The notes under the pieces are model-generated. The model worked only from the letters and a program-made list of their open reading frames with translations. It was not told where the DNA came from and ran no database searches. A stretch of 64,000 nt of DNA from Alphaproteobacteria bacterium (GTDB taxonomy: Bacteria > Pseudomonadota > Alphaproteobacteria > JAUHZY01), in assembly GCA_030425825.1 (NCBI GenBank), contig JAUHZY010000002.1, positions 1 through 64,000 on the forward strand. Reading direction: 5' to 3'. The position numbers were made by a program, and so were the translations under genes. Below, piece after piece: positions 1 to 33,004 of the stretch (positions are counted from its first letter, which is position 1; each line of letters starts with the position of its first letter).

Positions 1-122
1 CAGCTTCTGCTTCTGCTTCTGCTTCTGCTTCTGCTTCTGCTTCTGCTTCTGCTTCTGCTTCTGCTTCTGCTTCTGCTTCTGCTTCTGCTTCTGCTTCTGC
101 TTCTGCTTCTGCTTCTGCTTCT
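1..122. repeat. Hexanucleotide tandem repeat (CTTCTG)n
   Basis: About 20 uninterrupted copies of a 6-bp unit, continuing past the left edge. On the minus strand it is in frame with the GTG start at 169 and reads Glu-Ala. A change in copy number would lengthen or shorten the protein by two residues per unit without shifting frame. Confidence 0.97.
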
Positions 123-169
123 GGCTGCTTGTCTTCGGCGGGTTCTTCTTTTTTGTCTTCTTCGCTCAC
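1..169 (-). CDS. N-terminus of a type IV secretion operon protein with (Glu-Ala)n repeat, partial
   Basis: Only the first 56 codons are in the window; the gene runs off the left edge. A GTG start at 169-167 is preceded by GGAG at 180-177, which lies inside the end of the previous gene, so the two overlap in their signals and are probably translated together. The product begins with an acidic/lysine-rich stretch of 16 residues and then about 20 Glu-Ala pairs, encoded by a pure CAGAAG hexamer repeat. Placed after virB8, virB9 and a secretin gene, a VirB10/TrbI-like protein (long variable cytoplasmic N-terminus) is the natural guess, but no VirB10 domain is visible here. The CDS is likely real; its function is inferred from position only. 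Confidence 0.55.
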   Translation of the reverse strand, partial: MSEEDKKEEPAEDKQPEAEAEAEAEAEAEAEAEAEAEAEAEAEAEAEAEAEAEAEA

Positions 170-170
170 G

Positions 171-929
171 TTACCACTCCTTTACAACGCCACTACCAAC
201 GGCACCTTCAAAAACAACAATACCATGACGGTTATAAAGGCGTATATTACCGTCACGAATACGCATAAGGTAAGGCTCACTTTTTATATGGAACCACGTA
301 TTATGTTTTGGTGAAAAAATATCATTCCCAAACTTTAATAATGCTTCTTGACCATTAATGCCAAGAACTTTGAGAGGAAAGCTGTCCCGTGACTGTATAG
401 TTTTTTTGTGCTGCACTCTTTTTGGCTTTGTTTTTTTAAGCGTTTGTTTGCGTCTATATGTCCGTGATATTAAAGCTGTTTCTTTATTCGCTTTGGGCTC
501 TTCTTTGCGTGCGATCTTAGGGGGTTGCTTTTTTTGCTTTGGTTTAAGGGGTTTCTCTACATTCTTTTCAAGCGGTTTTTTTTCATGCGCCTCTTTAATA
601 GGTGGCGTTTTCAGTGTTGCTTTAACTTTTTCGGCAGGAATTGCTTCTTTTTTTACAACAGTTTTTTCTTTATGTTTCTTTTCAGGGAGATTTTTTAAAC
701 TCTTTTCAGCGTTTGGTGTAGGGGCTTTTTCTTTGACAGCTGATGCTTTTTCAGTTTTTTCCTGTTGGGGAGGCGCTTTATGAGCCTTTTCTTCGACAGC
801 TTCTTTTTCGACTTTTTTCTCGGTGGCGGGAGGTTGTTTTTTATCTGTAGGCAGAAAGGGGTTTGCCGCCATAGCATTGCTCATTGCCAGCAAGCCACAT
901 AAGCCTACGAAAAAAAACCAATTACGCAT
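171..929 (-). CDS. Secreted Lys/Glu-rich protein with PilP-like C-terminal domain, type IV secretion operon
   Basis: A 252-residue protein with an N-terminal signal peptide (residues 1-22, ending AMA) followed by the sequence NPFLPT. Residues about 30-180 are low complexity, dominated by Lys, Glu, Pro and Ala. The last 65 residues form a compact domain around FPLKVLGINGQEALLKFG and a later GIVVFEGAVG, which resembles the small beta domain of PilP-type proteins that dock an inner-membrane complex to a secretin. That resemblance is weak and I give it as inference. It directly follows the secretin gene (16 bp gap), as pilP lies near pilN in type IVb pilus clusters. It could instead be an unrelated periplasmic linker of the secretion channel. 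Confidence 0.75.
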   Translation of the reverse strand: MRNWFFFVGLCGLLAMSNAMAANPFLPTDKKQPPATEKKVEKEAVEEKAHKAPPQQEKTEKASAVKEKAPTPNAEKSLKNLPEKKHKEKTVVKKEAIPAEKVKATLKTPPIKEAHEKKPLEKNVEKPLKPKQKKQPPKIARKEEPKANKETALISRTYRRKQTLKKTKPKRVQHKKTIQSRDSFPLKVLGINGQEALLKFGNDIFSPKHNTWFHIKSEPYLMRIRDGNIRLYNRHGIVVFEGAVGSGVVKEW

Positions 930-945
930 GTTTATTCAACAACCT

Positions 946-2346
946 TTACTTAGAAACAAAGCTGACAATTCGAGGGCGAATAACAATAACAATCTCAGAC
1001 CTTGTGAAAGATTCATTTTCTGCTTTATTAAACAACAGAAGGTGATCCGATCCCGATTTGTCCTTAGATGTATCAGTTGCATGATTCATGCCAGCAAGCA
1101 GCAGGAAGTCGCCCGGGCGCACACGTGCAGAGGTGCTGACAGTTCTTTTGGAGGTTTGTGGAAGATGCAGCTCGGTCCCAAGGGCTTTAAAGTTTTGGTA
1201 TGATGTCACGTCACTTAGGTTAACGTCCATCTTTAAATAAATTGTATTATCTTGATAATCTCCGGCAAGCGAGAGTTTAAGTCCTGAATCTAGCTTCTCA
1301 GTTTCAACCGTCGTGTTAACAGAGTCACCTCTTGTTGAGGACCCAACTTTACTAACGAAAAAGTCTGACCGGCCAACGTGAAAATCACTTTTTGTTCCTG
1401 AAAGATGTGTTAAGACAGGTTTTGAAATTGTTCTTACAGATCCTTGAGATTGAAGAAAGTCATAAAGCCCAAAAAGGTCAAATTCAGCAAAGTTGTAAAC
1501 CATTGGGGAGTTTGAGCTGCCAGGTGTATAATTACTTGTATAGTTCAGGGATGCACGTTTCTTTTCGCTGTTAATAAAGTCGAACCATTTTACACCAGAA
1601 GGGTTAATGTTGTTGAGTGCCACGTCCCAAATATATGTGTCATACACAATAAGGACTTTGCTTTTTCTAATTTGTTCAAGATAGGCTTTGATGCGTAGGT
1701 AAGACTGTTTTTTTGCCTTGAAAGCAAGCATGCGACTAAACTTGTCAACTTGTATGTCTTCTGCACCTAGTGCTTCGATCATTTTTGGAACTTCTTTGAA
1801 AAGAGGGTCAACAGGAGGTAAAAGAACAACAAACCCCTCTTTAAGCTTCACATGCAAAACACCATCCTTAAAGTTATAATGAAGTCCCGTTGCGTTAGAA
1901 ATACTCTCAATGATTTCAGGCAAGAGGCCTGTGACATTAAGAATGGAAACAGGTTGATGAGAGGCATCTTCATCAATTAACAAAGCAATATTTGTGTTTT
2001 TGAGTAAAAGACGGAAAGCGTCAACAGCAGGAATGCCAATAGCAGAAAAATCATCAATGATAACATCAGGCAAGCTCTCCTGTCGTGTGACCGGGTAAGG
2101 AACCAGAACATTCTCACCGATAGGAATTTCAGTAATTGCATCATCCATTGCGCCGATAATTTCTTGTTTAACCGGCAAACCAATAGGAGAAACAGTAACA
2201 GTTGGGTTTTCTATCAAGCGACTTTGAGGGTGTGATTGAGGTGGCAGAGTTGTTGGCGGCCCTTTTTTTGAAAAAGAGAGACCATCTAGCGATATACAGG
2301 CATTTAGTAAACATAAGCTTAAAAGAAAAAACAGGCCTTTACGCAT
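946..2346 (-). CDS. Lipoprotein secretin (PilN/BfpB-like outer membrane channel)
   Basis: A 466-residue protein with a lipoprotein signal (LLNAC, Cys at about residue 16). Residues about 95-240 look like the N-domains of secretins (a short secretin/TonB-like segment around VDAFRLLLKNTNIALLID, then a ring-building fold). The C-terminal 200 residues form a secretin domain: SQGSVRTISKPVLTHLSG, a strand-rich region, RVRPGDFLLLAGM, and a final EIVIVIRPRIV, the order seen in GspD/PilQ/PilN secretins. Secretins form gated multimeric outer-membrane pores. It is flanked by virB9-like and PilP-like genes with gaps of 9 and 16 bp, so it is part of the same operon. A secretin is not part of classical VirB systems but is part of type IVb pilus systems such as R64 pilN. 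Confidence 0.85.
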   Translation of the reverse strand: MRKGLFFLLSLCLLNACISLDGLSFSKKGPPTTLPPQSHPQSRLIENPTVTVSPIGLPVKQEIIGAMDDAITEIPIGENVLVPYPVTRQESLPDVIIDDFSAIGIPAVDAFRLLLKNTNIALLIDEDASHQPVSILNVTGLLPEIIESISNATGLHYNFKDGVLHVKLKEGFVVLLPPVDPLFKEVPKMIEALGAEDIQVDKFSRMLAFKAKKQSYLRIKAYLEQIRKSKVLIVYDTYIWDVALNNINPSGVKWFDFINSEKKRASLNYTSNYTPGSSNSPMVYNFAEFDLFGLYDFLQSQGSVRTISKPVLTHLSGTKSDFHVGRSDFFVSKVGSSTRGDSVNTTVETEKLDSGLKLSLAGDYQDNTIYLKMDVNLSDVTSYQNFKALGTELHLPQTSKRTVSTSARVRPGDFLLLAGMNHATDTSKDKSGSDHLLLFNKAENESFTRSEIVIVIRPRIVSFVSK

Positions 2347-2355
2347 CAGATACCC

Positions 2356-3843
2356 TTAAAAAATTGGTCGCGGAGAAAAGCGAGGTGTGTCTTTTTCTAT
2401 TGGAAGCTGATCTACCTCAACACCGCTTCTTCCTGATCTTCCTTGCGATTTTGGTGCAAGTCTTTGAATTTTACGTGGTTCTGAACCAGGCTTTAAGGTT
2501 GTCGTGCCAATATCAATACCTTCGCCGTTGCCAGGCATTTTACTTTGTCTTTCGATACCACTTTCTTTCGAAATAATTGCGCCTCCAACGCGTGGAGCCG
2601 CATGCTGACGGATACAGACAATCTTTTGCCCATTGCGAAGTGTTAAGTCGCCAACGGCTTCAACAATAATGACATTGTTTTTGGGACCTGCTGTGCGCGT
2701 GTTGATCAATGTGTCTGATCCATCGATCACAAGGTGAACAACTGGACGACGAATGTTTTCAGCATTTTGTCCATAATCAAGATAGGTGAAAACACCATCA
2801 TGAAAAACACGTTCAGGCGCAATTTCTGCATCATCAATTGTTTCAGCATACATTTTCATATCAAACTGTAAGTTTTCAGGGCGATACGCAATTTGACGGA
2901 TATAATCAGGTGGATAAAGTGCCAACCCATCGTTTAAAGCTTGTGCGTGTGCAGGGGTTGATAGTCCTGATGGCACATAACCAGATCCATTAGGAATAGC
3001 AGGTATTGTGTTCCCAATTGCATAAGGTGTAGGAGACCCAAAAGGTGCGCCACCAGAATAAGCAAGATCAGGTCCGTATTCTTTAGGGTGGCCAAGCATG
3101 CCTGCTTTTTGTGAGCCACCTTTGCGTACGTTAATGTAAATGGTTAAGTCTGTGATTTGATTTGTATTCCATCCTTCAGAGCGCACATAGAAATTGTAAA
3201 CATTCCCACTTGTACCAATAACTGTCATGTTAGTATCAGCGCCAGGATTGGTTGATCTTAGGGCCAATAGATTCGTTTGAACTTTTTGAGCTTCAAAAAT
3301 ATGTGGGTCACCAATATAGAATGTTTTAATGTTTTCCCAGCTTGGGAAGTGAATCGTGGAGATCATATAGTCACGTGTCCGGATCGCCATGACATGATTA
3401 GGATTCCATTCAAACCAAACAACACCAGGTGAACGTTGTCCAGGAGAAGGTACAGGTCTGTCCCAGCTTTCCTGGATAGTTCCAAGTGGTAGTCCAGGAA
3501 GGCGACTAACAACGGGATAGTTACCGCGCATCTGGTCTTCAACAATTGCACGTCGCGCAGGATCAATAGGTCTCAGAGAGCTGGGTGAAACACTTGAGCT
3601 TGAAGACGGCGCAGGTTTGCGGACAGTTCTTCTAGGCTGGGGTGCTTGTGGAGGTCTTGGGGGTTGTATTGTCGAAAGCCCGCGTGTCAGTCTGCCGTCA
3701 TTCGGATCATTTGATGTGTCTCGAGACTTTTGGACATATGTTGCGCCGCTTGATCCAGGAATCGGTGGTGCGCTTTGCGCTTGTACTTCAGCAGCTGCGA
3801 TTGTAAAAAATGTTACAATAAGCAAAACAAGAAATTTTTTCAC
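2356..3843 (-). CDS. virB9: VirB9/TrbG-family type IV secretion protein, extended
   Basis: A 495-residue protein with a signal peptide (cleavage near VQAQ-SAP). VirB9 proteins are usually under 300 residues; here a Pro/Ser/Arg-rich stretch (about residues 25-130) precedes the N-terminal VirB9 domain (from VVWFEWNPNHVMAIRTRD) and a further 90-residue insertion, Gly/Pro/Ser/Tyr-rich, separates it from the C-terminal domain (ENLQFDMKMY to KIVCIRQHA). A disordered tail ends the protein. VirB9 forms the outer-membrane part of the type IV secretion core complex with VirB7 and VirB10. The gene lies 15 bp after virB8. The extended, disordered parts may serve contact with the neighbouring secretin, which is speculation. 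Confidence 0.88.
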   Translation of the reverse strand: MKKFLVLLIVTFFTIAAAEVQAQSAPPIPGSSGATYVQKSRDTSNDPNDGRLTRGLSTIQPPRPPQAPQPRRTVRKPAPSSSSSVSPSSLRPIDPARRAIVEDQMRGNYPVVSRLPGLPLGTIQESWDRPVPSPGQRSPGVVWFEWNPNHVMAIRTRDYMISTIHFPSWENIKTFYIGDPHIFEAQKVQTNLLALRSTNPGADTNMTVIGTSGNVYNFYVRSEGWNTNQITDLTIYINVRKGGSQKAGMLGHPKEYGPDLAYSGGAPFGSPTPYAIGNTIPAIPNGSGYVPSGLSTPAHAQALNDGLALYPPDYIRQIAYRPENLQFDMKMYAETIDDAEIAPERVFHDGVFTYLDYGQNAENIRRPVVHLVIDGSDTLINTRTAGPKNNVIIVEAVGDLTLRNGQKIVCIRQHAAPRVGGAIISKESGIERQSKMPGNGEGIDIGTTTLKPGSEPRKIQRLAPKSQGRSGRSGVEVDQLPIEKDTPRFSPRPIF

Positions 3844-3858
3844 AACTCTTTACCTTTA

Positions 3859-4581
3859 CTAATTTTTCTTTGGTCTGACACCAAAAGCAGTGACTGTAAA
3901 GCCAAAAGGATTTACAAGACTTCTATCATAACTCACTTCTTTTGGTAAGAAGGCGATGGTCATAGAGGCAATCCAACGCTCTGGTTCCTGCGTCAGGGGC
4001 TCACCTTGATCATCATAAACAAGGGTTTCGTAATCTATATTCCAAAATCCTGGGGCAACTTCTTCCAGAGAGTTTATCGTTACTGATCGAGACCATTCAC
4101 GCTCCAAAAACTCCTTAAGGGCAGGCATCGCACGCCCGTAAAACTTTTGATACACCCCTTGAGCTGAATGTTCAAAAACAAAGCTGTTGGGGCCCCATTT
4201 CTTACTCATGGCTGTTTTATTAGGAAAGATTTCTTCTGTCAGTGTGATATATTGTCTGATCAATCCTTCCGTCATGACCTGGAAGCCTTCCATGTTGCGA
4301 CGAATAGGCATGACTTGTACAAGTTGTTGATCTTTGTCTTTAAAAGTAACAAGAAAAGGTTCAACGCGCTTCATTGGAAAAACAGAAGCAACAGTAAATG
4401 TAAGGGCAAGGTTTAATGCCATACTTACGCCAAGCGCAACGGCAAACACGCGCAAAACCCATAAATAGCGTCTTTCACCCAGGACTGGAACATCAACATC
4501 TTTTGGATACTTTCCAAGTTTGTCTTCCGGTGGGTTGTTTTCAGCGTCCTTATCTGTTTTCTTCTTTATTTTTACCATCAA
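3859..4581 (-). CDS. virB8: VirB8-family inner membrane type IV secretion protein
   Basis: A 240-residue bitopic protein. A charged cytoplasmic N-terminus (residues 1-40) is followed by one membrane helix (about 43-70, WVLRVFAVALGVSMALNLAL) and a periplasmic domain of VirB8/TrbF type with the features VEPFLVTFKDKD, a YITLTEEIFPN helix and the late strands WIASMTIAFL and VNPFGFTVTAFGV. VirB8 nucleates the channel and binds VirB4, VirB9 and VirB10. Its start overlaps the end of the lipoprotein gene by 4 bp, so translation is likely coupled. Confidence 0.88.
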   Translation of the reverse strand: MMVKIKKKTDKDAENNPPEDKLGKYPKDVDVPVLGERRYLWVLRVFAVALGVSMALNLALTFTVASVFPMKRVEPFLVTFKDKDQQLVQVMPIRRNMEGFQVMTEGLIRQYITLTEEIFPNKTAMSKKWGPNSFVFEHSAQGVYQKFYGRAMPALKEFLEREWSRSVTINSLEEVAPGFWNIDYETLVYDDQGEPLTQEPERWIASMTIAFLPKEVSYDRSLVNPFGFTVTAFGVRPKKN

Positions 4582-4772
4582 CTATGTCTCCAGTCAGAGA
4601 AGTTCTGTGGGATTTCATTGCATGCACAAGGGCTTTTCTTGTATTCATTAACATCGCGCCCAACACCAACAGGGTCAGGGCTTTTTGTGGTTCCACATGC
4701 TGCTAAAATGACAAGAAGAAATGTCAAAAATACAGTGTTTTTATTGAAAATAGTTTTAAGCATAATTTTCAT
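4578..4772 (-). CDS. Small lipoprotein, VirB7-like by position
   Basis: The reading frame is open back to 4871 inside virB4, but the ATG at 4772 (MKIMLKTIF) gives a clean lipoprotein signal peptide with lipobox LAAC, and lies just after the virB4 stop. The mature part is about 40 residues with two more Cys (SPCACNEIP). Size, lipobox and position between virB4 and virB8 suggest the VirB7-type partner that ties VirB9 to the outer membrane by lipid and disulfide. There is no sequence family match I can recognise, so VirB7 is an inference. Confidence 0.75.
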   Translation of the reverse strand: MKIMLKTIFNKNTVFLTFLLVILAACGTTKSPDPVGVGRDVNEYKKSPCACNEIPQNFSDWRHS

Positions 4773-4788
4773 CTTAAAGCATCCCTTC

Positions 4789-7254
4789 TTACGCATCCAG
4801 ATATTCTTTGACCCATCCGTCGCCGAATTGTTTTCTAAGTGTTTCAGCCATTTTAACAGAGTCACGACCACTGTTAAATATTCTCAAATGTGGACCAAGA
4901 ACACCCAAGTCAGTATCTAGAATGACAGACTCTCCAGTTGCGCGCTTCACCAAAACAGCTCGTTGCAAGTGGATGGCCGTCTTCCCTTTGATAAAATTCC
5001 ATTCAGTATCGGTCAATGAAAAATCGTCATAATCTTTTTCTTGTGCTTGTGGATTGCGAAGAAAGAACATTGTCTGTGCTTGTCCACGAATCAACTCACT
5101 CACACCTGTTGCTTTTAAGGCTTCGGGTCTTTGGAAAGCTGATAAAACACCTGCACCTCTTTTACGATACTCTTGCAGCATTTTCAAGAACCAGTCGCGG
5201 AAAGTCGGGTGTTTTAAGAGAGGTTCGGTCTCATCCACGAAAATCAAGGCAGGTGCATTTCTCTCGGAAATTGTGGCTTGAATTCTGTGCATAAGATAGG
5301 AAAGCATTGCTTGAGTTAAGTCTTCACTGGCATAAATTCGTGTGAAATCGAATGCGATCAGTTTTTTTGTTCCTGTATCGAGTGTATCGACATCAGCGTT
5401 AAAAATGTTGCCATAAATTTGTGGGTCAATCCATCTTCTTAAAGATTTTGAAACAGGCCTGTCAGGGGCAAAGCAAACTTCATGAAGCGTTTTGAGTGAG
5501 CGTTGGTTTTTATCAAGGCCAGACTCAAAGTTTAGTTTCACAGCGCGACCAATTTCTTCCAATGATTCAGAATCATCTTGTCCCGAGATACCTTGTAGCC
5601 AGGATCTTAGGAACGCGCGGTTTTCATTTGTATCTTCACACTGGAAAGGGTTAAGAGAGCAAGATTGCCCTGTGCTTTCATCTTCACCAGCACTGTCAAT
5701 ATTAATGTAAGATCCTGCGGCAGCGTTGGTGAAAACATACGCACCTAAATAACGATCAAAAAGATAACAGCGCAGCTTGCTATGTCGCATCGCCATGCCT
5801 GTTAAGAACGAGATTAAAGTTGTTTTACCACCGCCTGTTGGACCGATAATAATGCCGTGTGCAACGGCATCTCGTTCGTCAGAGACATGAAACTGGAATT
5901 GGTAAGGTGTGCCCACATGCGTTTTAAAGATCGCAATTGGCCCTTCACCCCAATCACTTTTTTCTAGGCCGTCTGGTGCCCGGTCAAAGCTGATTAATGC
6001 AGCAATATTGCCGGAGAAGAACTTAAAAGGACGTGGCCAAAGACTGTAAGATGGCAGTTGTGCGAACCAGCTAGCTTGTGCTGCAACGCCTTCTCGGACA
6101 GGGCTGACACCATAGTTTACACAAACACGGCGTATTTCACTATCAATACGGTGCACTTCTTCAGGTGTTTTGCCGTTAACAAAGATGATCATTTGATAGG
6201 TTGCCAGCGTTTGACGGTTTTCATCAACACCTTCAATCATTTCTAGCGCCTCAACAAATTGTTGTTTGGCTGCTGAGCTAAATCGTGTGACCATTGCCAT
6301 GCGACCTTGTTGTGCGAGTAGGGCGGCAGACTTTACTTTTGACCAAGGCTCGACCATGTGCATGATAGTGATTTCACCATTTACCGAACCAAGTGCCGAG
6401 ACAAAATCTTCATCTGTGAAATCACCAAAATTACGAATGCCAATAACACCCATGTATTTATGAAAGTCACCACTTTGAAAATGGATAAGTCCGCGTTCTT
6501 CTGCAGCGAACTCAACAACATCTGCAGTAATCATTTCATTGACATCACCAACCATACCTTTTGGATAAGGGCGCGTTATCGGGCTAACAATATGGCTTAA
6601 AACGGCAAGAGGGGAGTCTTCAGCGCGTTCGGCCTTTTTTTGATTCAGTATGCGTGGTTGAAAGTCATGCAGCATCGTTTTCGTTGCCTCAGAGGCATCG
6701 ATCAATCTTTTTTCAACAGTTGTTGTGCCTTCTTCTTTTTTCTTTGGCACCATGCTTGAAAGCAAAAGGATATGTCTGTTGCTGTAGGCATCTTCAAATG
6801 TTGTGTTCCATTTTTTTGCAATATCACGCAAAACAGGGCTGTCATAATCAGTTGAGAGGTTAAATTCTTTTTCTTCGCGAATCACAAAAATACGTGTGCG
6901 AATGTTTAACTCTGCGAGTGTGTCAAACCATCTTTTGCGTTTTTGAAAAAGTTCTTCACGCTCACTGGCTGAAAGAAAGGCAATTTCTTTTCCTTTCAGT
7001 TCCATGACCATGCACGCAGACCCATCCAAACACATAATTGTTTGACCATCAGGTTTAACATGTGAAAATGGGAGATGGTCAACAAGGCGTGTTTCTTTGG
7101 GAACGGGCAGCATTAGTCTGGTGATGACAGGAATAATAAAAAAGCATAATAAAACAAGCGATACGCCAATACCCACAATTGCGATTCCTGTGGGTCCTGA
7201 TGATGTGACAGCCTGAAAAAAATGGTATGTATCGATGGACGTCGGCGAATACAT
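4789..7254 (-). CDS. virB4: VirB4/TrbE-family type IV secretion ATPase
   Basis: An 821-residue ATPase that energises pilus or substrate handling in type IV secretion. Residues about 17-47 form one or two membrane helices at the N-terminus, followed by a cytoplasmic region (CagE/TrbE N-domain, about 60-430) and the ATPase domain with Walker A GPTGGGKTT (about residues 470-479) and Walker B ALIFVDETEP (about 668). The sequence EYRKRGAGVLSAFQRPE after it fits the motif that follows Walker B in this family. It lies downstream of virB3 and is followed within 16 bp by the small lipoprotein gene. The N-terminal membrane segment is a variable feature in the family. No frameshift is seen. Confidence 0.92.
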   Translation of the reverse strand: MYSPTSIDTYHFFQAVTSSGPTGIAIVGIGVSLVLLCFFIIPVITRLMLPVPKETRLVDHLPFSHVKPDGQTIMCLDGSACMVMELKGKEIAFLSASEREELFQKRKRWFDTLAELNIRTRIFVIREEKEFNLSTDYDSPVLRDIAKKWNTTFEDAYSNRHILLLSSMVPKKKEEGTTTVEKRLIDASEATKTMLHDFQPRILNQKKAERAEDSPLAVLSHIVSPITRPYPKGMVGDVNEMITADVVEFAAEERGLIHFQSGDFHKYMGVIGIRNFGDFTDEDFVSALGSVNGEITIMHMVEPWSKVKSAALLAQQGRMAMVTRFSSAAKQQFVEALEMIEGVDENRQTLATYQMIIFVNGKTPEEVHRIDSEIRRVCVNYGVSPVREGVAAQASWFAQLPSYSLWPRPFKFFSGNIAALISFDRAPDGLEKSDWGEGPIAIFKTHVGTPYQFQFHVSDERDAVAHGIIIGPTGGGKTTLISFLTGMAMRHSKLRCYLFDRYLGAYVFTNAAAGSYINIDSAGEDESTGQSCSLNPFQCEDTNENRAFLRSWLQGISGQDDSESLEEIGRAVKLNFESGLDKNQRSLKTLHEVCFAPDRPVSKSLRRWIDPQIYGNIFNADVDTLDTGTKKLIAFDFTRIYASEDLTQAMLSYLMHRIQATISERNAPALIFVDETEPLLKHPTFRDWFLKMLQEYRKRGAGVLSAFQRPEALKATGVSELIRGQAQTMFFLRNPQAQEKDYDDFSLTDTEWNFIKGKTAIHLQRAVLVKRATGESVILDTDLGVLGPHLRIFNSGRDSVKMAETLRKQFGDGWVKEYLDA

Positions 7255-7357
7255 AATATGCTATGCCTCTTGCGTTTTATTTCCCTGAATAAAACATTTA
7301 TCGTAACTCGCCTTATGATTAAAGAGAAAAGTTAACTTTGTCAGGTTTCGAAGGCCT

Positions 7358-7648
7358 TTAAGGGATAAATTTATTTCCATTGCTGTGGTAAAAGTTAACG
7401 GTCTTGCGCTTGGACATCATGTAGGGCTCTAAAAGTGATGTAAGGTGAGGTTCTTTTTGTCCCCAGGCAATAATAGCACCGTGACCAACGGCCATAAGAA
7501 CGAAAACAATTAAAGGGTTACCGCCAACGGCTTGCACGTACAAGATACCGCCAATTGCCGCAAAAACCATATTTAAACTGGCGGGGATCATAGGTGCCCA
7601 AAATAGTTGAGCAGGATCAGCGACAGCACGAAAAACAGGAACCTTCAT
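7358..7648 (-). CDS. virB3: VirB3-family type IV secretion protein
   Basis: A 96-residue protein with the VirB3 pattern: a short N-terminus (VPVFRAVADPAQLFWAP) and two closely spaced membrane helices (about residues 20-38 and 45-62) followed by a basic/polar tail. VirB3 sits in the inner membrane and works with VirB4. A good ribosome site (AGGAGG-like, in the complement of ttaattatgcctcctt) lies just upstream. It is the first gene of the leftward operon; a 103-bp gap before virB4 holds no further gene that I can see. Confidence 0.87.
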   Translation of the reverse strand: MKVPVFRAVADPAQLFWAPMIPASLNMVFAAIGGILYVQAVGGNPLIVFVLMAVGHGAIIAWGQKEPHLTSLLEPYMMSKRKTVNFYHSNGNKFIP

Positions 7649-7762: not shown

Positions 7763-10177
7763 ATGCTAAAAAAATCTTCTTACATCGTTCTTCCTGTTTT
7801 ACCGCTTAGAAATATCGTTGTTTTCCCGCATATGGTTGTCCCACTCCTTGTTGGAAGAGACAAGTCTGTAGAGGCTTTAGAAGAAGTCATGCAGGACGAT
7901 AGTCGCAATATTTTGTTGGTGACGCAAAAAGATGCAAATACAGACAATCCTGGTCCAAGTGATATTCATGAAGTTGGAACGCTAGGAACAGTTTTGCAAC
8001 TTCTGAAGCTTCCTGATGGAACGGTCAAGGTTCTAGTTGAAGCCGTTCAGCGTGTTCGTATTAATAAGTTTATGGATAATGATGCTTATTTTGAGGCTGA
8101 GGCGTCTGTTCTAGAAGAAACAGGCGAAGAAGATAGCGAGCATCAAGCTTTACTGCGTGCGGTTGTTGAGCAATTTGAACAATATGCAAAACTAAACCAA
8201 AAAATTCCAGGTGAGATTGTAGATTCGATTGCTGAGCTTGAAGAGTCGAGTAAGCTTGTTGATGCTATTGCGACCCATGTCACATTAAAGATCTCGGAAA
8301 AACAAGAGCTACTTGAAACGCTAGACATAACGGAGCGTCTTGAGAAGCTGTATGCCCATCTTGAGAGTGAAATAGATGTTTACAAGGTAGAGCGTAAAAT
8401 TAGAAATCGCGTTAAAAAACAAATGGAAAAAACGCAGCGTGATTACTATCTAAACGAACAGCTTAAAGCGATTCAGCGTGAATTAAATGACAACGAAGAT
8501 GAGGATGAGGACGATATTAAGGTTCTTGAGCGCCGCATTGAAGAAGTTAAGTTGTCAGCAGAAGCTGAGAAAAAGGCTAAATCTGAGTTGAAAAAGCTAA
8601 AAAATATGAGTCAAATGTCAGCAGAAGCAGCTGTTATTAGAGGTTATATTGAGTGGCTTTTAGATGTTCCTTGGAGCAAAAGATCTAGAACAAAAAGTGA
8701 CTTGAAAAAGGCTGAGAAAGTTTTAGATAAAGGTCATCACGGTCTAGAAAAAGTCAAAGAAAGAATGGTGGAATATCTTGCTGTTCAATCAAGACAGAAA
8801 AAGATTAAAGGACCTATTCTATGTTTTGTGGGCCCTCCTGGGGTTGGTAAGACGTCACTAGGTAAGTCGATTGCCGAAGCCGTTGGGCGCAAGTTTGTAC
8901 GCCTGTCACTAGGTGGGGTGCGTGATGAAGCCGAAATCCGTGGACACCGCAGAACTTATGTTGGCGCGATGCCTGGTAAGATTATTCAAGCGATGAAGAA
9001 GGCTGGAACAACAAATCCATTAATCATGCTTGATGAGATTGATAAGTTGGGGAATGATTGGCGTGGAGATCCATCTTCTGCATTGCTAGAAGTACTAGAT
9101 CCGGAACAAAATAATGCTTTCAATGATCATTACATGGAAGTTGATTATGACTTGTCAGATGTTTTGTTTGTCATGACATCAAATTCTTTGAATATTCCAC
9201 GACCTCTTCTTGATCGTATGGAAGTTATTCGCATCCCCGGCTACACAGAAGATGAAAAACTTCAGATTGCAAAAAAACATTTGCTTCCTAAACAAACAAA
9301 AGATCATGGCCTGAAGAAGAAAGAGTGGTCTATTTCTGATGAAACACTTAGAAATGTTGTTCAGCGATATACGAAAGAAGCAGGTGTCCGTAACCTTGAG
9401 CGTGAGCTTGCTAAGTTGGCAAGAAAATCTGTGAAGAAAATTATGATGGATGACACCGAGAAAGTCACCGTTACAAAGAAAAACCTGAAAGATTTCTTAG
9501 GTGTACCAAAATATAAGTTTGGTGAGAGCGAAAAAGAGAGTCTGGTTGGTGTGACGACGGGGCTTGCATGGACAGAGGTCGGCGGTGAATTGTTGCTGAT
9601 AGAGGCAGTTGTTGTCCCAGGAAAAGGTCAGATTACAAGCTCTGGTAAGTTAGGCGATGTGATGAAAGAGTCTATCACTGCAGCTGAAAATCTTGTGAAA
9701 TCACGTTGTACTGATTTTGGTATTAAGCCAACAATCTTTAAGAAGAAAAATATTCATGTTCACTTACCGGAGGGCGCTGTGCCAAAAGATGGTCCTTCAG
9801 CAGGGATTGGTATGGTCACAACGATTGTGTCTGTATTGACTGATATTAAGGTCAAAAAAGATGTCGCGATGACAGGTGAGGTTTCATTACGCGGTCGTGC
9901 AATGGAAATTGGCGGATTGAAAGAAAAGCTTTTGGCAGCATTGCGTGGCGGAATTAAGACTGTTCTTATACCAAAAGATAATGAAAAAGACTTGGAAGAC
10001 ATTCCTGATAATGTCAAAAAAGGTTTGAAAATTATTCCTGTGACAACGATTGATGAGGTTCTTGATCTTGCATTAGAAGAGCCTGTTAAGCCGATTGAGT
10101 GGGTTGAGCCTGATGACGACGATGTCGCTTTATCAGCAGTTGATGAAGATGATGATCCAACTTATGTAACGCATTAA
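7763..10177 (+). CDS. lon: ATP-dependent protease Lon (LonA)
   Basis: Full-length LonA (804 residues), the cytoplasmic AAA+ serine protease that degrades misfolded and regulatory proteins. The N-domain runs to about residue 200, followed by a coiled coil (about 210-290), the AAA+ module with Walker A GPPGVGKTS and Walker B LIMLDEIDK, and the protease domain with catalytic Ser679 (GPSAG) and Lys720 (GGLKEK). The C-terminus carries an Asp-rich tail. In many proteobacteria lon lies between clpX and hupB; here it stands alone next to the divergent secretion operon. Its stop overlaps the stop of the convergent membrane protein gene. The ribosome site is weak (AGTGA). Confidence 0.98.
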   Translation: MLKKSSYIVLPVLPLRNIVVFPHMVVPLLVGRDKSVEALEEVMQDDSRNILLVTQKDANTDNPGPSDIHEVGTLGTVLQLLKLPDGTVKVLVEAVQRVRINKFMDNDAYFEAEASVLEETGEEDSEHQALLRAVVEQFEQYAKLNQKIPGEIVDSIAELEESSKLVDAIATHVTLKISEKQELLETLDITERLEKLYAHLESEIDVYKVERKIRNRVKKQMEKTQRDYYLNEQLKAIQRELNDNEDEDEDDIKVLERRIEEVKLSAEAEKKAKSELKKLKNMSQMSAEAAVIRGYIEWLLDVPWSKRSRTKSDLKKAEKVLDKGHHGLEKVKERMVEYLAVQSRQKKIKGPILCFVGPPGVGKTSLGKSIAEAVGRKFVRLSLGGVRDEAEIRGHRRTYVGAMPGKIIQAMKKAGTTNPLIMLDEIDKLGNDWRGDPSSALLEVLDPEQNNAFNDHYMEVDYDLSDVLFVMTSNSLNIPRPLLDRMEVIRIPGYTEDEKLQIAKKHLLPKQTKDHGLKKKEWSISDETLRNVVQRYTKEAGVRNLERELAKLARKSVKKIMMDDTEKVTVTKKNLKDFLGVPKYKFGESEKESLVGVTTGLAWTEVGGELLLIEAVVVPGKGQITSSGKLGDVMKESITAAENLVKSRCTDFGIKPTIFKKKNIHVHLPEGAVPKDGPSAGIGMVTTIVSVLTDIKVKKDVAMTGEVSLRGRAMEIGGLKEKLLAALRGGIKTVLIPKDNEKDLEDIPDNVKKGLKIIPVTTIDEVLDLALEEPVKPIEWVEPDDDDVALSAVDEDDDPTYVTH

Positions 10178-13619: not shown

Positions 13620-14696
13620 ATGACCTCACCTCTTCCCCCCGGATCAGTCATTGGCATTTTAGGTGGCGGACAGCTTGGGCGCATGACGGCCTTGGCAGCT
13701 GCGAATTTGGGATATCAAGCATATGTTTATTGTTTGAATAAAGATGATCCTGCAGCACAAGTTTGTGCACGCTCAATAGTTGGTCAATATGATGATGAAG
13801 ATGCCTTAAGATCTTTTGCTGCGATGTGCGATGTTATCACTTTAGAATTTGAAAATATACCGACTGAAACTCTTCAATTTCTAGAGAATATTATTTCTGT
13901 GCGACCTCATCACAAAGTGCTTGCAGTGACACAGTCCAGGCTGGAAGAAAAAGGGTTTGCAAAAGAAAGTGGCTTTGAAACAGCGTCATATCAAGCTGTC
14001 AGATCGATAAGTGACCTCAGACAAGCCACCAAAGAAATTGGCTGTCCGTCTATCTTGAAGACAAACCGTTTTGGGTATGATGGGAAGGGGCAAGTCAGAA
14101 TTGAAGAAGATACAGATTTAGTAGAGGCATGGGAATCCCTTCAAACAGATGAGGCTATTTTAGAAGGTTTTGTTGAGTTTGATAAAGAAGTTTCAATCAT
14201 TGTTGCAAGAAGCAGTATTGGTGAAATAAAAATGTTTCCTGTGACAGAAAATATTCATGTAAACCATGTTTTGAGTGAAAGCATTGTGCCAACCACTGTT
14301 GCGCCAGAAGTCTTAAGTGAGGTTGAGAAAAAGCTTGTTAAGCTTGTAGAAAAAATGGATCTAAATGGTTTGCTGGCAATAGAGTTTTTTGTTAGTAAGT
14401 CTGGCACTTTTCTTGTCAATGAAATGGCTCCGCGCCCTCATAATTCGGGACATTGGACAATGGATGGTTGCATGACATCGCAGTTTGAGCAATTGGTTCG
14501 GGCAGTATGTGGATTGCCACTTGGGTCTACCAAGGCATTGGGTAAAGTAAAAATGAAGAACATACTTGGCCCTGATGATAAAAACTGGGAAGCTTATATC
14601 AAAGACGCACACGCAAAGCTTCATTTATATGGTAAATCTGATTCAAAGCCTGGTCGCAAGATGGGCCACGTTACTTACTTAGAATTGGATCAATAA
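13620..14696 (+). CDS. purK: N5-carboxyaminoimidazole ribonucleotide synthase
   Basis: ATP-grasp enzyme of 358 residues that carboxylates AIR with ATP and bicarbonate. The N-terminus has the nucleotide-fold motif IGILGGGQLGRM, the ATP-grasp core shows ILKTNRFGYDGKGQV and EGFVEFDKEVSIIVAR, and the metal-binding end reads FLVNEMAPRPHNSGHWT. It is paired with purE. Its last 26 bp overlap the end of the convergent GT61 gene. Confidence 0.97.
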   Translation: MTSPLPPGSVIGILGGGQLGRMTALAAANLGYQAYVYCLNKDDPAAQVCARSIVGQYDDEDALRSFAAMCDVITLEFENIPTETLQFLENIISVRPHHKVLAVTQSRLEEKGFAKESGFETASYQAVRSISDLRQATKEIGCPSILKTNRFGYDGKGQVRIEEDTDLVEAWESLQTDEAILEGFVEFDKEVSIIVARSSIGEIKMFPVTENIHVNHVLSESIVPTTVAPEVLSEVEKKLVKLVEKMDLNGLLAIEFFVSKSGTFLVNEMAPRPHNSGHWTMDGCMTSQFEQLVRAVCGLPLGSTKALGKVKMKNILGPDDKNWEAYIKDAHAKLHLYGKSDSKPGRKMGHVTYLELDQ

Positions 14697-28215: not shown

Positions 28216-28392
28216 GTGCTGAAGATGTGCGCAAGACAGTTTGGAAGGAAAGAGAACATGGCAGATGTCATGGGCTTGCTCCTGCGTGCTGTTTTGTGTC
28301 TGCACACTGCCCCCATAGCCGAAGTGCGTAGCGCGTGGCACATTATCATCTCATCGCGAGATGTTGGGACAACATATGGAGGTGAGTCATGA
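28216..28392 (+). other. Possible leader reading frame ahead of flagellin 1
   Basis: A frame open from ATG 28204; GTG 28216 has GGAG at the right distance. It would encode about 58 residues and its TGA overlaps the flagellin ATG (ATGA). The last 25 residues are similar to the product of the short frame before flagellin 2, but the nucleotide changes between the two copies preserve RNA stems, so this may be an untranslated leader rather than a gene. Confidence 0.3.
28314..28388 (+). repeat. Flagellin leader repeat, copy 1
   Basis: A 75-bp segment directly before the first flagellin start, identical to copy 2 (29806-29880) at 69 of 75 positions. It holds a GTGC/GCAC stem (28324-28341), a CATCTC/GAGATG hairpin (28347-28363) and the ribosome site GGAGGT (28378-28383). 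Differences between copies mostly fall in the stems and keep pairing. Confidence 0.9.
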
Positions 28393-29777
28393 TCAATGAC
28401 ATTAAGCTCACCTCTGCGATGAAAAACAGTTTGTTGAACCATCAACAGATCAAGGATCTGACAGCGACTGTTGAGAAGCGCCTGGCGACAGGTAAGAAGG
28501 TTAATGACATTCTGGACGGTCCTGTTGAGTACTTTAAAGCGAAGGGCCTTTATGACAAAGCAGATGGATTGTTGAGGCGTAAAGACGATATTGATCAGGC
28601 GATTAGCACGTTGAAGGCGACACAGCATGGTATCACAAATGGTCGGATGATCATTGAGCAGGTCAAGGGCCTGGCCGAAGAAGCACGCACTGCATCTGCC
28701 GCACAGAGAGCTATTTTAGCGATGCAGGCTAATAAACTGCTGGCGGAATACGATGACCTTATTTATGACACAAACAAAGACGGTGTGAACCTGCTTATCA
28801 ACGAAAGCCTCTATGTAAACTTTGATAACTCAGGAACGGACTACTATTTACTTAACAACTCGTTCCGCGTTGATACGATGAGTTATGCGCAGTTTGAAGT
28901 TGTCGAATATTCCGATGCTGGACAAAGCGCGATTATTGGAAACTATAATGGTAGTGATAATTATTGGATCGGATTAAATGGTAACGAACCTGTCTTTAGA
29001 TGGGCAAGTGGCCCCGCATTCGCGCCAACAGGGCTCAACCTGACGACGCTTAGTAATTTCACATTACGCTTTGACGTTGTAGGTCCTAATGTCACAGCAA
29101 CGATTACAGCATCCGATGGCACGCAGCTATACCAAGACACACAAGCACATGGTGGATTGCAAAACACAGTTGCAGATATGTTTGGTGGGACGGCCCAGTT
29201 CACATCAGTCGCGCGCGCTTTTAATGGTGTTCTATCAGAAATTGATATTGATGGTGATGTTTGGGAGATGAACCCTCTACCAACAACGCTGACATCAAGT
29301 AATGGAAATACTGCCAACCAAATCAGTCCTAATCCTGCAGATATGATCTATAACGGGAATGCTACAAGCGACTTTGCAACCTCCCTTAATATTGAGCTGT
29401 CTGATGATACATCTCATACAATTGACTCTGTTGATATACGTACACAACAAATAGGGTTGTTCGGATACACATTCTCAAGCACAGGTGCGATTGAACAAAG
29501 TATCGCAGACCTTGACGCTGCCCTGAATAGGATAGACACGACTGCTGCCAGCTTTGCAACAGACTTTGCATTATTACAAACCCGCCTAGAGTTGACAGAA
29601 GATCTGATCAACACGCATGAAGAAGCCGGCGACAAACTGACACTGGCAGATTTAGAAGAAGAATCTGCTAACAGATTGGCCCTTGAGACACGTGAGCAAT
29701 TGAGCATTTTCTCAATGACGAACTCAAACCGATCAATACAGAACTTGATTGATATCTTGTTTGGAGGTGGGTCATGA
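28389..29777 (+). CDS. Flagellin with variable central domain (possible concanavalin-A-like fold)
   Basis: A 462-residue flagellin. Residues 1-138 are the N-terminal filament region of alphaproteobacterial flagellins (SAMKNSLLNHQQIKDLTATV, RLATGKKVNDILDGP) and residues about 335-462 the C-terminal one, ending SIQNLIDILFGG. Between them, residues about 140-330 form a strand-rich insert (DNYWIGLNGNEPVFRW, FNGVLSEIDIDGDVWEM) that reads like a divergent LamG/concanavalin-A-like jellyroll. In the filament this part would be exposed on the surface. The terminal regions are nearly identical to flagellin 2, while the inserts are not alike. The start has a strong GGAGGT site. Its TGA overlaps the ATG of the following short frame. 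Confidence 0.92.
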   Translation: MINDIKLTSAMKNSLLNHQQIKDLTATVEKRLATGKKVNDILDGPVEYFKAKGLYDKADGLLRRKDDIDQAISTLKATQHGITNGRMIIEQVKGLAEEARTASAAQRAILAMQANKLLAEYDDLIYDTNKDGVNLLINESLYVNFDNSGTDYYLLNNSFRVDTMSYAQFEVVEYSDAGQSAIIGNYNGSDNYWIGLNGNEPVFRWASGPAFAPTGLNLTTLSNFTLRFDVVGPNVTATITASDGTQLYQDTQAHGGLQNTVADMFGGTAQFTSVARAFNGVLSEIDIDGDVWEMNPLPTTLTSSNGNTANQISPNPADMIYNGNATSDFATSLNIELSDDTSHTIDSVDIRTQQIGLFGYTFSSTGAIEQSIADLDAALNRIDTTAASFATDFALLQTRLELTEDLINTHEEAGDKLTLADLEEESANRLALETREQLSIFSMTNSNRSIQNLIDILFGGGS

Positions 29778-29884
29778 TCAATGACATTAAGCTCACTTCC
29801 GCCCTCATAGCCGAAGCGCGTAGCGCGTGGCGTATCATCATCTTATCGCGAGATGTTGGGACAACATATGGAGGTGGGTCATGA
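29774..29884 (+). pseudogene. Remnant of a third flagellin start fused to the leader of flagellin 2
   Basis: A 36-codon frame. It starts with MINDIKLTSA exactly like a flagellin, with GGAGGT ahead of it, then jumps after ten codons into the 75-bp leader repeat, read in frame, and ends at a TGA that overlaps the ATG of flagellin 2. The simplest reading is that a flagellin gene between the two present ones was removed, leaving its first 30 bases. It could still act as a short coupling frame. Confidence 0.7.
29806..29880 (+). repeat. Flagellin leader repeat, copy 2
   Basis: Second copy of the 75-bp leader (see 28314-28388), with hairpins at 29816-29833 and 29839-29855 and GGAGGT at 29870-29875. 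Confidence 0.9.
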
Positions 29885-31314
29885 TCAATGACATTAAGCT
29901 CACCTCTGCGATGAGAAACAGTTTGTTGAACCATCAGCAGATCAAGGATCTGACAGCGACTGTTGAGAAGCGCCTGGCGACAGGTAAGAAGGTCAACGAC
30001 ATTCTGGATGGTCCTGTTGAGTACTTCAAAGCGAAGGGCCTTTATGACAAGGCGGATAGCCTACTGAAACGCAAAGACGATATTGATCAGGCGATCAGCA
30101 CGTTGAAGGCAACACAGCATGGTTTGACCAGTGGTCGTGTTATCATTGAGCAGGTCAAGGGCCTGGCCGAAGAGGCACGCACTGCAAGTGCGGCGCAAAG
30201 AACAGTTCTAGAAGCGCAGGCTAATAAACTGCTGGGTGAGTATAACAACCTTATTACTGATACGCACAAAGATGGGACAAACTTGCTTGTTGAAGAGGGT
30301 ATTGTTGCGACACTTGACGGTGTTGGCGACCAGGTGTTTTTACCACCGACAGGCGATATTGCAGAGACGACAGTGTCTGCGTGGGTTAGAACAACAAAAT
30401 CATCCTCAGAACAAATTTTATTTGTTGGAACAGTTCCTGCAGGAGAACAGCTTAGAATCACCACTGGCGGCGTTCTTCGAGGTCCTGATTCAACATATGG
30501 AAGTATAGTTATTAACGATGGGCAGTGGCATCATGTTGCAATGACCTTTGACAATGCAACCACACCTGGATCGCCAGAAGTACGACTTTACGTTGACGGT
30601 GTGCTGGATGGGCAAAAATCTATCAACCCAGCACTTGCAACAGCAAATGTTTCTTGGTTTGCCAGAAACAGTAGTGTCAATTATGAAGGAAGCGTGAGTG
30701 ACGCGACCGTGCATACAAGAGCTTTCTCAGACGCAGAGGTTCTTAACCTTAAGAATGGTGCCATTCCTGCATTAAATCTGCATGGCCATTGGCCGTTTGA
30801 TGATGGTGCAGGAACGACAGTAAATGATGTCTCTGGGAATGGTAATCACGGAACAATTCAAAATGCGAGTATTCCAAGCCCATTTTGGGATGAGGTGGGT
30901 GCGCCTGGTATTAATAACGCGAGTGAAGATCTGGATGTTGCTTTCTCTGATGACAGCATACATACGATTGAATCTGTTGATATCAGAACACGAAGTCTTG
31001 GTATCAGTACAATTGATTTTTCTTCTACAGGTTTAGACGCCACAATATCAAGCTTTGACGCTGCCCTGAACAGGATAGACACGACTGCTGCCAGCTTTGC
31101 GACGGACTTTGCATTATTACAAACCCGCCTAGAGCTGACAGAAGATTTGATCAACACGCATGAAGAAGCAGGCGATAAACTGACACTGGCAGATTTAGAA
31201 GAAGAATCTGCAAACAGATTGGCCCTTGAGACACGCGAGCAATTGAGCATTTTCTCAATGACGAACTCGCACCAGTCGATACAGAACTTGATTGATATTT
31301 TGTTTGGGGGATAA
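29881..31314 (+). CDS. Flagellin with central LamG/concanavalin-A-like lectin domain
   Basis: A 477-residue flagellin from the ATG at 29881; the frame is open a little upstream but this start matches flagellin 1 and has GGAGGT at 5 bp. Conserved N-terminal (1-138) and C-terminal (about 355-477) filament regions flank an insert at about 140-345 with clear Laminin_G_3/LamGL marks: VSAWVRTTKSSSEQILF, INDGQWHHVAMTFD, VRLYVDGVLDGQ, RAFSDAEVLNL and FDDGAGTTVNDVSGNGNHG. Such domains bind glycans or proteins, so the filament surface would carry a lectin-like module. It is probably co-transcribed with flagellin 1. No terminator is evident after it. Confidence 0.94.
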   Translation: MINDIKLTSAMRNSLLNHQQIKDLTATVEKRLATGKKVNDILDGPVEYFKAKGLYDKADSLLKRKDDIDQAISTLKATQHGLTSGRVIIEQVKGLAEEARTASAAQRTVLEAQANKLLGEYNNLITDTHKDGTNLLVEEGIVATLDGVGDQVFLPPTGDIAETTVSAWVRTTKSSSEQILFVGTVPAGEQLRITTGGVLRGPDSTYGSIVINDGQWHHVAMTFDNATTPGSPEVRLYVDGVLDGQKSINPALATANVSWFARNSSVNYEGSVSDATVHTRAFSDAEVLNLKNGAIPALNLHGHWPFDDGAGTTVNDVSGNGNHGTIQNASIPSPFWDEVGAPGINNASEDLDVAFSDDSIHTIESVDIRTRSLGISTIDFSSTGLDATISSFDAALNRIDTTAASFATDFALLQTRLELTEDLINTHEEAGDKLTLADLEEESANRLALETREQLSIFSMTNSHQSIQNLIDILFGG

Positions 31315-31453: not shown

Positions 31454-33004
31454 ATGGCTGCCGCAAAGAAGACAACATCAAAGTCTAAGAAGACACCAAC
31501 AAAAAAGAAAGTAACAGCAAAGAAAAAGGTGCCAGTGAAAAAGACTGCTCCTAAAAAAGCTGTAACAGCAAAGAAAAAAACGCCCATCAAAAAGAAAGTA
31601 GTAGCACCTAAAAAGGTTGCTGTTAAGAAGCCAGCGGCGAAAAAGCCTGTGGTTAAAAAATCTTTACCAACACCAACAGGGCAAGACAGCTTTACACTCA
31701 TTGATAATTCAAACGGCAAATCTTACACATATCCTGTTCTTCATGGAACGCAGGGGCCACGGGCTGTTGATGTGCGAAAATTTTACGGTGATACAGATGC
31801 TTTTCTTTACGATCCAAGCTTTACCTCTACGGCAAGTTGTGATTCGAAGATAACTTTTATTGATGGCGATAAGGGAGTTTTGCAGCATCGTGGGTACCCC
31901 ATTAATGAGCTAGCAGAAAAAGCATCGTTTTTAGAAGTTTCTTTTCTTTTGCTTTATGGCGAGTTACCGAATAAATCAGAGTTAGAGCAGTTTGAGCATG
32001 AGGTGACAATGCATACGCTTGTGCATGAGCGTTTGAAAGAGTTCTATCAAGGCTTTCCAAGAAATGCCCACCCAATGGCTATTATGTGTGGGACAGTTGG
32101 CGCGCTTTCAGCATTTTACCATGACAGCGTTGATTTTCACGATCCCTATCAACGTGAGCTAACAGCTATACGCTTGATGGCGAAAATGCCAACAATTGCC
32201 GCGATGTCTTATAAATACGCGATTGGGCAGCCATTTATTTATCCAGACAATACGTTGGATTATTCTTCGAACTTCTTGAAAATGATGTTTGCTGTACCTT
32301 GTGAAGAGTACAAAGTTGACCCTGTTGTTGCGAAGGCAATGGATAAAATATTTATTCTTCATGCTGATCATGAGCAAAATGCATCTACGTCAACTGTTCG
32401 TTTAGCAGGCTCTTCGAATGCGAATCCCTTTGCCTGTATTTCGGCGGGTATTGCTTCTCTTTGGGGTCCATCACATGGCGGCGCGAATGAAGCAGTTATT
32501 CATATGCTGGAAGAAATTGGTGATAAGAAAAATATCTCTGCTTTCATTAAGAAAGTGAAAAACCGCGAAACACGCCTTATGGGCTTTGGTCATCGTGTAT
32601 ATAAGAACTATGACCCACGTGCAGCTGTTATGCAAAAAGCTTGTAAAGATGTTCTGAAATCTTTGAAGATTAAAGATCCACATCTTGAGATTGCAATGGA
32701 GCTTGAAAGAATTGCATTATCTGATGATTTCTTTGTCGAGAAGAAACTTTATCCAAATGTTGACTTCTACTCAGGAATTATTTTGCGTGCTATTGGTTTT
32801 CCAACATCTATGTTTACAGTTCTTTTTGCACTAGCAAGAACGGTTGGATGGATTTCTCAGTGGAAAGAAATGGATGAAGATCCTGCGAAAAGAATTGGTC
32901 GCCCAAGACAACTTTATGTCGGTGAGAAACAGCGTAAAGTGACACCAATCAAGAAGCGTTCCAGGGATGTAATTCACCGCCAGATCTTGACTGATCGACG
33001 TTAG
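31454..33004 (+). CDS. gltA: Citrate synthase with histone-H1-like N-terminal extension
   Basis: A 516-residue protein. Residues from about 76 on are a complete type II (hexameric, NADH-sensitive class) citrate synthase, starting [19 protein letters not shown] and including [11 protein letters not shown], the active-site His regions [14 protein letters not shown] and [11 protein letters not shown], and [15 protein letters not shown]. It condenses acetyl-CoA with oxaloacetate. Residues 1-72 are almost only Lys, Ala, Pro, Val and Thr (runs such as [17 protein letters not shown]). An AGGAGG site 6 bp before the ATG supports this start, and no internal start exists near the enzyme domain. The last 56 bp overlap the convergent anmK. 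Confidence 0.97.

Follow-up and report, generated by a model that had tools for sequence, protein, structure and literature searches.

Secretins, which serve type II and type III secretion systems, type IV pili and filamentous phage, and the VirB7/9/10 core of type IV secretion systems (T4SSs) have been treated as separate routes across the outer membrane. At the start of one alphaproteobacterial contig, a gene for a lipoprotein secretin shares an operon with virB3, virB4, virB8 and virB9, which raises the question of whether the two routes are combined here, or whether the secretin belongs to, or is left over from, some other machine. The initial annotation of this DNA noted that VirB systems have no secretin, which is right for the canonical ones, and offered two readings: a hybrid in which a VirB inner complex is coupled to a secretin pore, or a pilus driven by a VirB4 motor. 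The stretch analysed here (the window) comprises 64,000 nucleotides from base 1 onward of contig C5 of the source genome (G000; 1.95 Mb, 99% complete, 11 contigs).

A secretin gene in a virB operon

The operon is read on the minus strand with intergenic gaps of about 1–16 bases, and lon, at 7763, is divergent from its first gene, virB3. Its features within the window are the following:

7358..7648, minus strand: virB3, first gene of the operon
4789..7254, minus strand: virB4 ATPase
4578..4772, minus strand: virB7-like lipoprotein, with lipobox ILAAC and a KKSPCAC motif
3859..4581, minus strand: virB8
2356..3843, minus strand: virB9 (CagX family, 495 aa)
946..2346, minus strand: lipoprotein secretin
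171..929, minus strand: periplasmic protein in the pilP position
1..169, minus strand: start part of an ORF330-family gene
1..121, minus strand: (GAAGCA)n repeat at the contig end, encoding a (Glu-Ala)n tract

Profile searches place the genes from virB3 to the secretin where they had been annotated, on one strand and in one operon: virB4 matches TIGR00929 (1.3e-115) and shares 45–51% identity with its clade relatives, virB8 matches PF04335 (1.8e-20) and virB9 PF03524 (8.1e-26). The call is weaker for virB3, whose PF05101 match (0.0027) falls short of the cut-off; an iterated profile of clade VirB3 proteins identifies it as homologous. The small lipoprotein likely starts at the ATG at 4772 and has 64 aa, the open reading frame (4578–4871) running further, to 4871. 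Its family is found in plasmid and chromosomal relatives, and its KKSPCAC motif is of the VirB7/ComB7 type, a [KI]KSP motif being reported for Rickettsia VirB7 and ComB7 (PMC2653234). VirB9 is 41–43% identical to the VirB9 proteins of relatives that likewise sit ahead of a secretin.

The secretin, a call that profile searches could have overturned, proved real (PF00263, 2.8e-16; 60 bits against a curated cut-off of 27.5). It carries a signal peptide with the lipobox LLNAC, periplasmic N domains and a C-terminal secretin domain (aa 298–461). By type it is closest to MshL and PilN/BfpB: the nearest NCBIfam models are MshL (2.8e-20) and PilN (5.4e-12), both well under their curated cut-offs, and among solved structures its best relatives, whether sought by sequence or with a low-confidence fold model, are BfpB and further secretins.

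A PilP-like protein had also been counted as part of the operon. Such a gene is present at 171–929, just outside the annotated interval, and encodes a signal peptide, a long Lys/Pro linker and a small C-terminal beta domain; it is 23–27% identical to its positional counterpart in two relatives (G119 and G019). However, a profile search gave no significant match, and PilP by homology was rejected when profile comparisons (hhalign) came back empty, so the label is positional only.

The remainder of the locus and the missing pilus motor

The (GAAGCA)n repeat occurs at the left end of C5 and at the right end of contig C2 and nowhere else in the genome, and orientation and reading frame fit; the two contigs were joined on this basis. 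Across the join, the gene that begins with a GTG at 169 and an acidic (EA)n N-terminus continues at 14365–13085 of the C2 locus (L012). It belongs to the ORF330 family and is followed by a member of the ORF165 family, so that the join adds two genes to the operon. ORF330 was also considered as PilO by homology and rejected, since profile comparisons gave no match, and hhalign found no PilO or PilP partner among the accessory genes of G000. On C2, virD4, virB11 and virB10 converge on ORF330 and ORF165. Of the genes sought to the left of the window, virB10 and virB11 are there, with virD4, whereas no virB6 was found with the system and no pilin in L012.

Over the two joined contigs, virB4, virB8, virB9, virB10, virB11 and virD4 occur together, the set of a P-type (VirB) T4SS with a core of VirB9 (CagX) and VirB10 (TrbI). 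VirB10 carries an N-terminal signal peptide, the lipobox VAAC and an extra Ig-like domain, and has no cytoplasmic tail or membrane anchor; it is not the inner-membrane-anchored VirB10 of the P-type class. VirD4 (L012 9854–12580) is 908 aa long, against 640–708 aa in relatives, and ends in a DnaQ-like exonuclease domain (TIGR01406, 2.7e-12). From its gene set, the system appears to be built like, and would probably work like, a P-type T4SS with a variant VirB10.

The nearest systems of other kinds are plasmid-borne P-type (MPF_T) T4SSs of Microvirga, Erythrobacter and Sphingosinicella, which share the set virB3-B4-B7-B8-B9-B10-B11-D4 but have virB10 directly after virB9, no secretin, and a VirB10 with an inner-membrane anchor. 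A lipoprotein VirB10 is common to the members of the G000 clade that were read. More distant systems whose virB9 has no neighbouring secretin (L079, L080 and L086) share this trait, so it fits an altered outer complex but does not prove one. The long, disordered VirB9, which the initial annotation had taken as a sign of such a complex, loses that meaning, because VirB9 of the secretin-less plasmid relatives has 430–550 aa. Outside the clade, five genomes (G021, G344, G047, G171 and G267; L093, L098, L100, L101 and L102) encode very large VirB10 proteins of 1044–2831 aa, several with repeated LIGKVIPDG-like motifs and often two per system.

Genome-wide profile searches returned 946–2346 as the sole secretin of G000 and no T2SSF platform protein; the only T2SSE ATPases above the cut-off are two VirB11 proteins, one of them this system's. 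Because the defining motor of a type IVb pilus (a T2SSE assembly ATPase with a T2SSF platform) was sought and is absent, we class the system as a P-type T4SS and not as a type IVb pilus. A wrong joining of contigs that hides pilQ and pilR was rejected on the unique repeat and the genome-wide searches. Searches of the window and L012 with profiles of relatives found no pilin and no prepilin peptidase, and neither region contains VirB2- or VirB5-like genes. VirB6 (PF04610) was found in G000 only on contig C11, where it belongs to another system, of the conjugation type, and the VirB machine, seen without VirB2, VirB5-like and VirB6 alongside, may be incomplete. The C11 system (L013 6489–19343) is of the VirB/Trb type, and two further VirB10/TraB genes with near-equal scores lie on contigs C6 and C8, so the genome holds several T4SSs.

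The position after virB9 in related systems

Relatives were collected by a class-wide VirB4 search and a search of named genomes; an order-level search found none within G000's own order. In the VirB4 tree, a clade of 15 rows (support 99/98) unites G000 with Telmatospirillum siberiense and its relatives and several small alphaproteobacterial genomes. All 13 members that are readable at this point carry a secretin-family lipoprotein gene within 3 kb downstream of virB9 on the same strand. In G032 the gene is truncated by the contig end, and L122 is consistent with the pairing. The secretin of G150 (L146) was left out of the tally, since its surrounding gene order differs and it lies apart in the tree.

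The gene content of this position varies. In Telmatospirillum types, virB9 is followed by tcpQ-pilN-pilO-pilP-pilQ-pilR, with tcpQ (PF10671) and pilO (PF06864) of T. siberiense confirmed by Pfam. In G119 and G019 it is followed by the secretin, a gene in the PilP position, pilQ, pilR, ORF330 and ORF165, and G119 has three prepilin-like genes ahead of virB10. Between virB11 and virD4, the G119 hybrid locus also has an oppositely oriented gene for a PilT/PilB-like ATPase (L089 6579–7739). The initial annotation had proposed a search for the same gene order elsewhere, and the closest match is G019, in which virB8-virB9-secretin-pilP-like-pilQ-pilR-ORF330-ORF165 converges on virD4-virB11; G000 has the same order and the same convergent arrangement, and hence equals G019 minus pilQ and pilR. 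G000 has lost the pilus ATPase and platform and has kept, in its VirB operon, a pilus secretin and three partners from its module. We found this gene order in no known conjugation system. A further set of small alphaproteobacterial genomes (L060–L069, L094, L099 and L104) has a type IVb pilus cluster of tcpQ, pilN, pilO, pilP, pilQ and pilR divergent beside virB3-virB4.

The operon is free of pilus genes in four genomes (G010, G143, G242 and G323), and the lipoprotein encoded between their virB9 and virB10 is a shortened secretin relative that keeps the N domains. The PF00263 search found no match in these virB9-adjacent lipoproteins, whereas hhalign aligns the barrel-less lipoprotein to the secretin N domains with a probability of 97.6 (E 4e-12), the alignment stopping at the expected start of the barrel. 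The window secretin and the G010 protein were modelled with AlphaFold, but too poorly for interpretation (mean pLDDT 50 and 40). Between G143 and G242 the barrel-less protein has a dN/dS of 0.18, compared with 0.03–0.09 for neighbouring genes; it is under purifying selection, weaker than that on its neighbours yet clearly constrained. A secretin relative is thus kept under selection elsewhere in the clade with no pilus genes beside it. The only T2SSF and PF00263 matches in the four genomes look Tad-like (paired T2SSF genes of about 320–336 aa). G010 is the one genome in which the whole Tad cluster was read, and its other secretin was set aside because it belongs to the Tad pilus. Outside the clade, G171 and G267 each encode a pilus secretin plus another, shortened one beside virB11.

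The module with ORF330 and ORF165 also exists by itself. The plasmid secretin closest to that of G000 is from Rhodoferax ferrireducens (34.6% identity, E 1e-70), where a stand-alone module comprises the secretin, a gene without assignment, an ATPase, a platform, an ORF330 homologue, a gene in the ORF165 position and prepilin-like genes; a Methylibium petroleiphilum plasmid carries the same module. Profiles match ORF330 in Rhodoferax (5.9e-30) and Methylibium (4.4e-24) and ORF165 in Methylibium (4.7e-10). In gene set and order these betaproteobacterial plasmid modules match that of G119 and G019, and G000 likewise has the ORF330 and ORF165 families beside its secretin; they differ from G000 in having the motor and no virB genes within 15 kb. 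Because the plasmids carry ORF330 and ORF165 beside a secretin, we take the parts kept in G000 to come from a defined pilus module.

The phylogenies of VirB4 and the secretin place G000 differently. In the secretin tree, G000 groups with G119 and G019 (100/99), on a long branch and apart from Telmatospirillum, whereas in the VirB4 tree it falls outside both. Since the two trees conflict, the pilus modules of the clade are possibly of more than one origin: either a module was replaced in the same position, or two were captured there.

Possible roles of the retained secretin

The gene content and the recurrence of the pairing suggest a mixed machine in G000, a VirB engine working with a secretin pore. 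Of the two readings offered initially, the hybrid is the best fit, resting on a secretin that is the only one in the genome, the absence of a pilus ATPase and platform, and a virB9-secretin pairing that spans the clade, including genomes without pilus genes beside it; the pilus driven by VirB4 is the weaker, as no pilin was found in the locus. We envision that a chromosomal P-type operon acquired a type IV pilus module right after virB9, with a secretin, a PilP-position protein, a PilQ-type ATPase, a PilR-type platform, ORF330, ORF165 and prepilins. G000 would then have lost the ATPase, the platform and, so far as the regions searched show, the pilins, while the envelope parts stayed: the secretin, the PilP-position protein, ORF330 and ORF165. 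Its own lipid anchor would bring the secretin to the outer membrane, where it would join VirB7, VirB9 and VirB10 in a gated ring or pore, VirB10 being here a lipoprotein and not an inner-membrane-anchored bridge. The ORF330 and ORF165 membrane proteins and the PilP-position protein may in turn link this ring to the inner-membrane VirB3/B4/B8/B11/D4 complex, which would power the export of substrates recruited by VirD4. That the T4SS captured a pilus secretin with its periplasmic partners and retained them in its outer-membrane complex, where the secretin acts, is an account whose chances we judge to be evenly balanced. More tentatively, and with a probability somewhat short of even, we propose a class of secretin-containing VirB systems in which a ring acquired from a type IV pilus, either a secretin or derived from one, forms or gates the outer-membrane portal, with pilus alignment proteins bridging in place of an inner-membrane-anchored VirB10.

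It is unlikely, though worth serious thought, that the four retained genes are a decaying remnant of a pilus lost so recently that they are intact merely for lack of time. The ATPase and platform are missing from exactly the position they hold in G019, the secretin branch is long, and the lack of VirB2, VirB5-like and VirB6 with the system could mean that the whole locus is shrinking. However, all four genes are open and keep the residues conserved across their families at 20–42% identity, and the persistence of a secretin relative in the four genomes without pilus genes, with purifying selection in G143 and G242, speaks against such decay. Another reading, which we consider improbable, has two machines share one operon, the secretin serving a separate fibre or pilus whose motor role falls to VirB11 or VirB4, or some of whose components were missed. 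PilQ-type ATPases are homologues of VirB11, Telmatospirillum, G119 and G019 have a full pilus module in the operon, and plasmid pili of such a kind aid conjugation as separate devices (PMC9045228); against this, the genome has no platform protein and the locus no pilin, and a secretin relative without a recognisable barrel, as in four relatives, should not let a pilus through. Very improbable is a pore that works on its own in the outer membrane, releasing filamentous phage or some other product, for instance, and is co-transcribed with virB by chance: the secretin does match the profile of the phage pIV group (phrog_1012, 7.6e-18), but many families of the class have it in this place behind virB9 and G000 retains three more genes common to pilus modules.

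Several known systems have features in common with this locus. With type IVb pili (R64 thin pilus, TCP, BFP) it shares a secretin of the PilN/BfpB type, and the Telmatospirillum insert has their tcpQ, pilN, pilO, pilP, pilQ and pilR; in G000, by contrast, the secretin stands within a virB operon, the ATPase and platform are missing, and no pilins were found in the window or L012. The rvh T4SS of Rickettsiales is likewise an alphaproteobacterial chromosomal VirB system, and type IV pili together with rvh are reported in basal Rickettsiales (PMC9352585), but the available parts of PMC2653234 and PMC9352585 describe no secretin as part of rvh. Type IV pili beside a T4SS are known from plasmids, where the pili are a separate mating aid (TP114, PMC9045228; pYR4, PMC6232867). 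The nearest published parallels that we found are DotD of Dot/Icm (PMC2951367) and Xanthomonas VirB7 (PMC3093366), T4SS outer-membrane lipoproteins with a secretin-type domain, comparable in idea to the barrel-less proteins of the four relatives; these have the N0 fold only, recognised from structure, whereas G000 has a complete secretin with its barrel domain. The literature searched, which included few subscription papers, held no description of a complete secretin inside a virB operon and kept after loss of the pilus motor. The stages in this lineage, a full pilus module, a lone secretin and a barrel-less relative, all beside virB9, would show the absorption of one outer-membrane route into the other, and purified complexes could then serve to test the notion that the N0 domains of DotD and Xanthomonas VirB7 first prompted.

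Two further features of the window, away from the operon, deserve mention. Two flagellin-like genes stand in tandem at 29827–31314 and 28389–29777, and the variable region of the second contains a concanavalin A-like lectin domain (Laminin_G_3, 1.5e-17). A citrate synthase gene at 31454–33004 (PF00285, 1.7e-140) encodes, if its start codon is right, an extension of about 110 residues at the N-terminus that is histone-like and rich in Lys, Ala and Pro.
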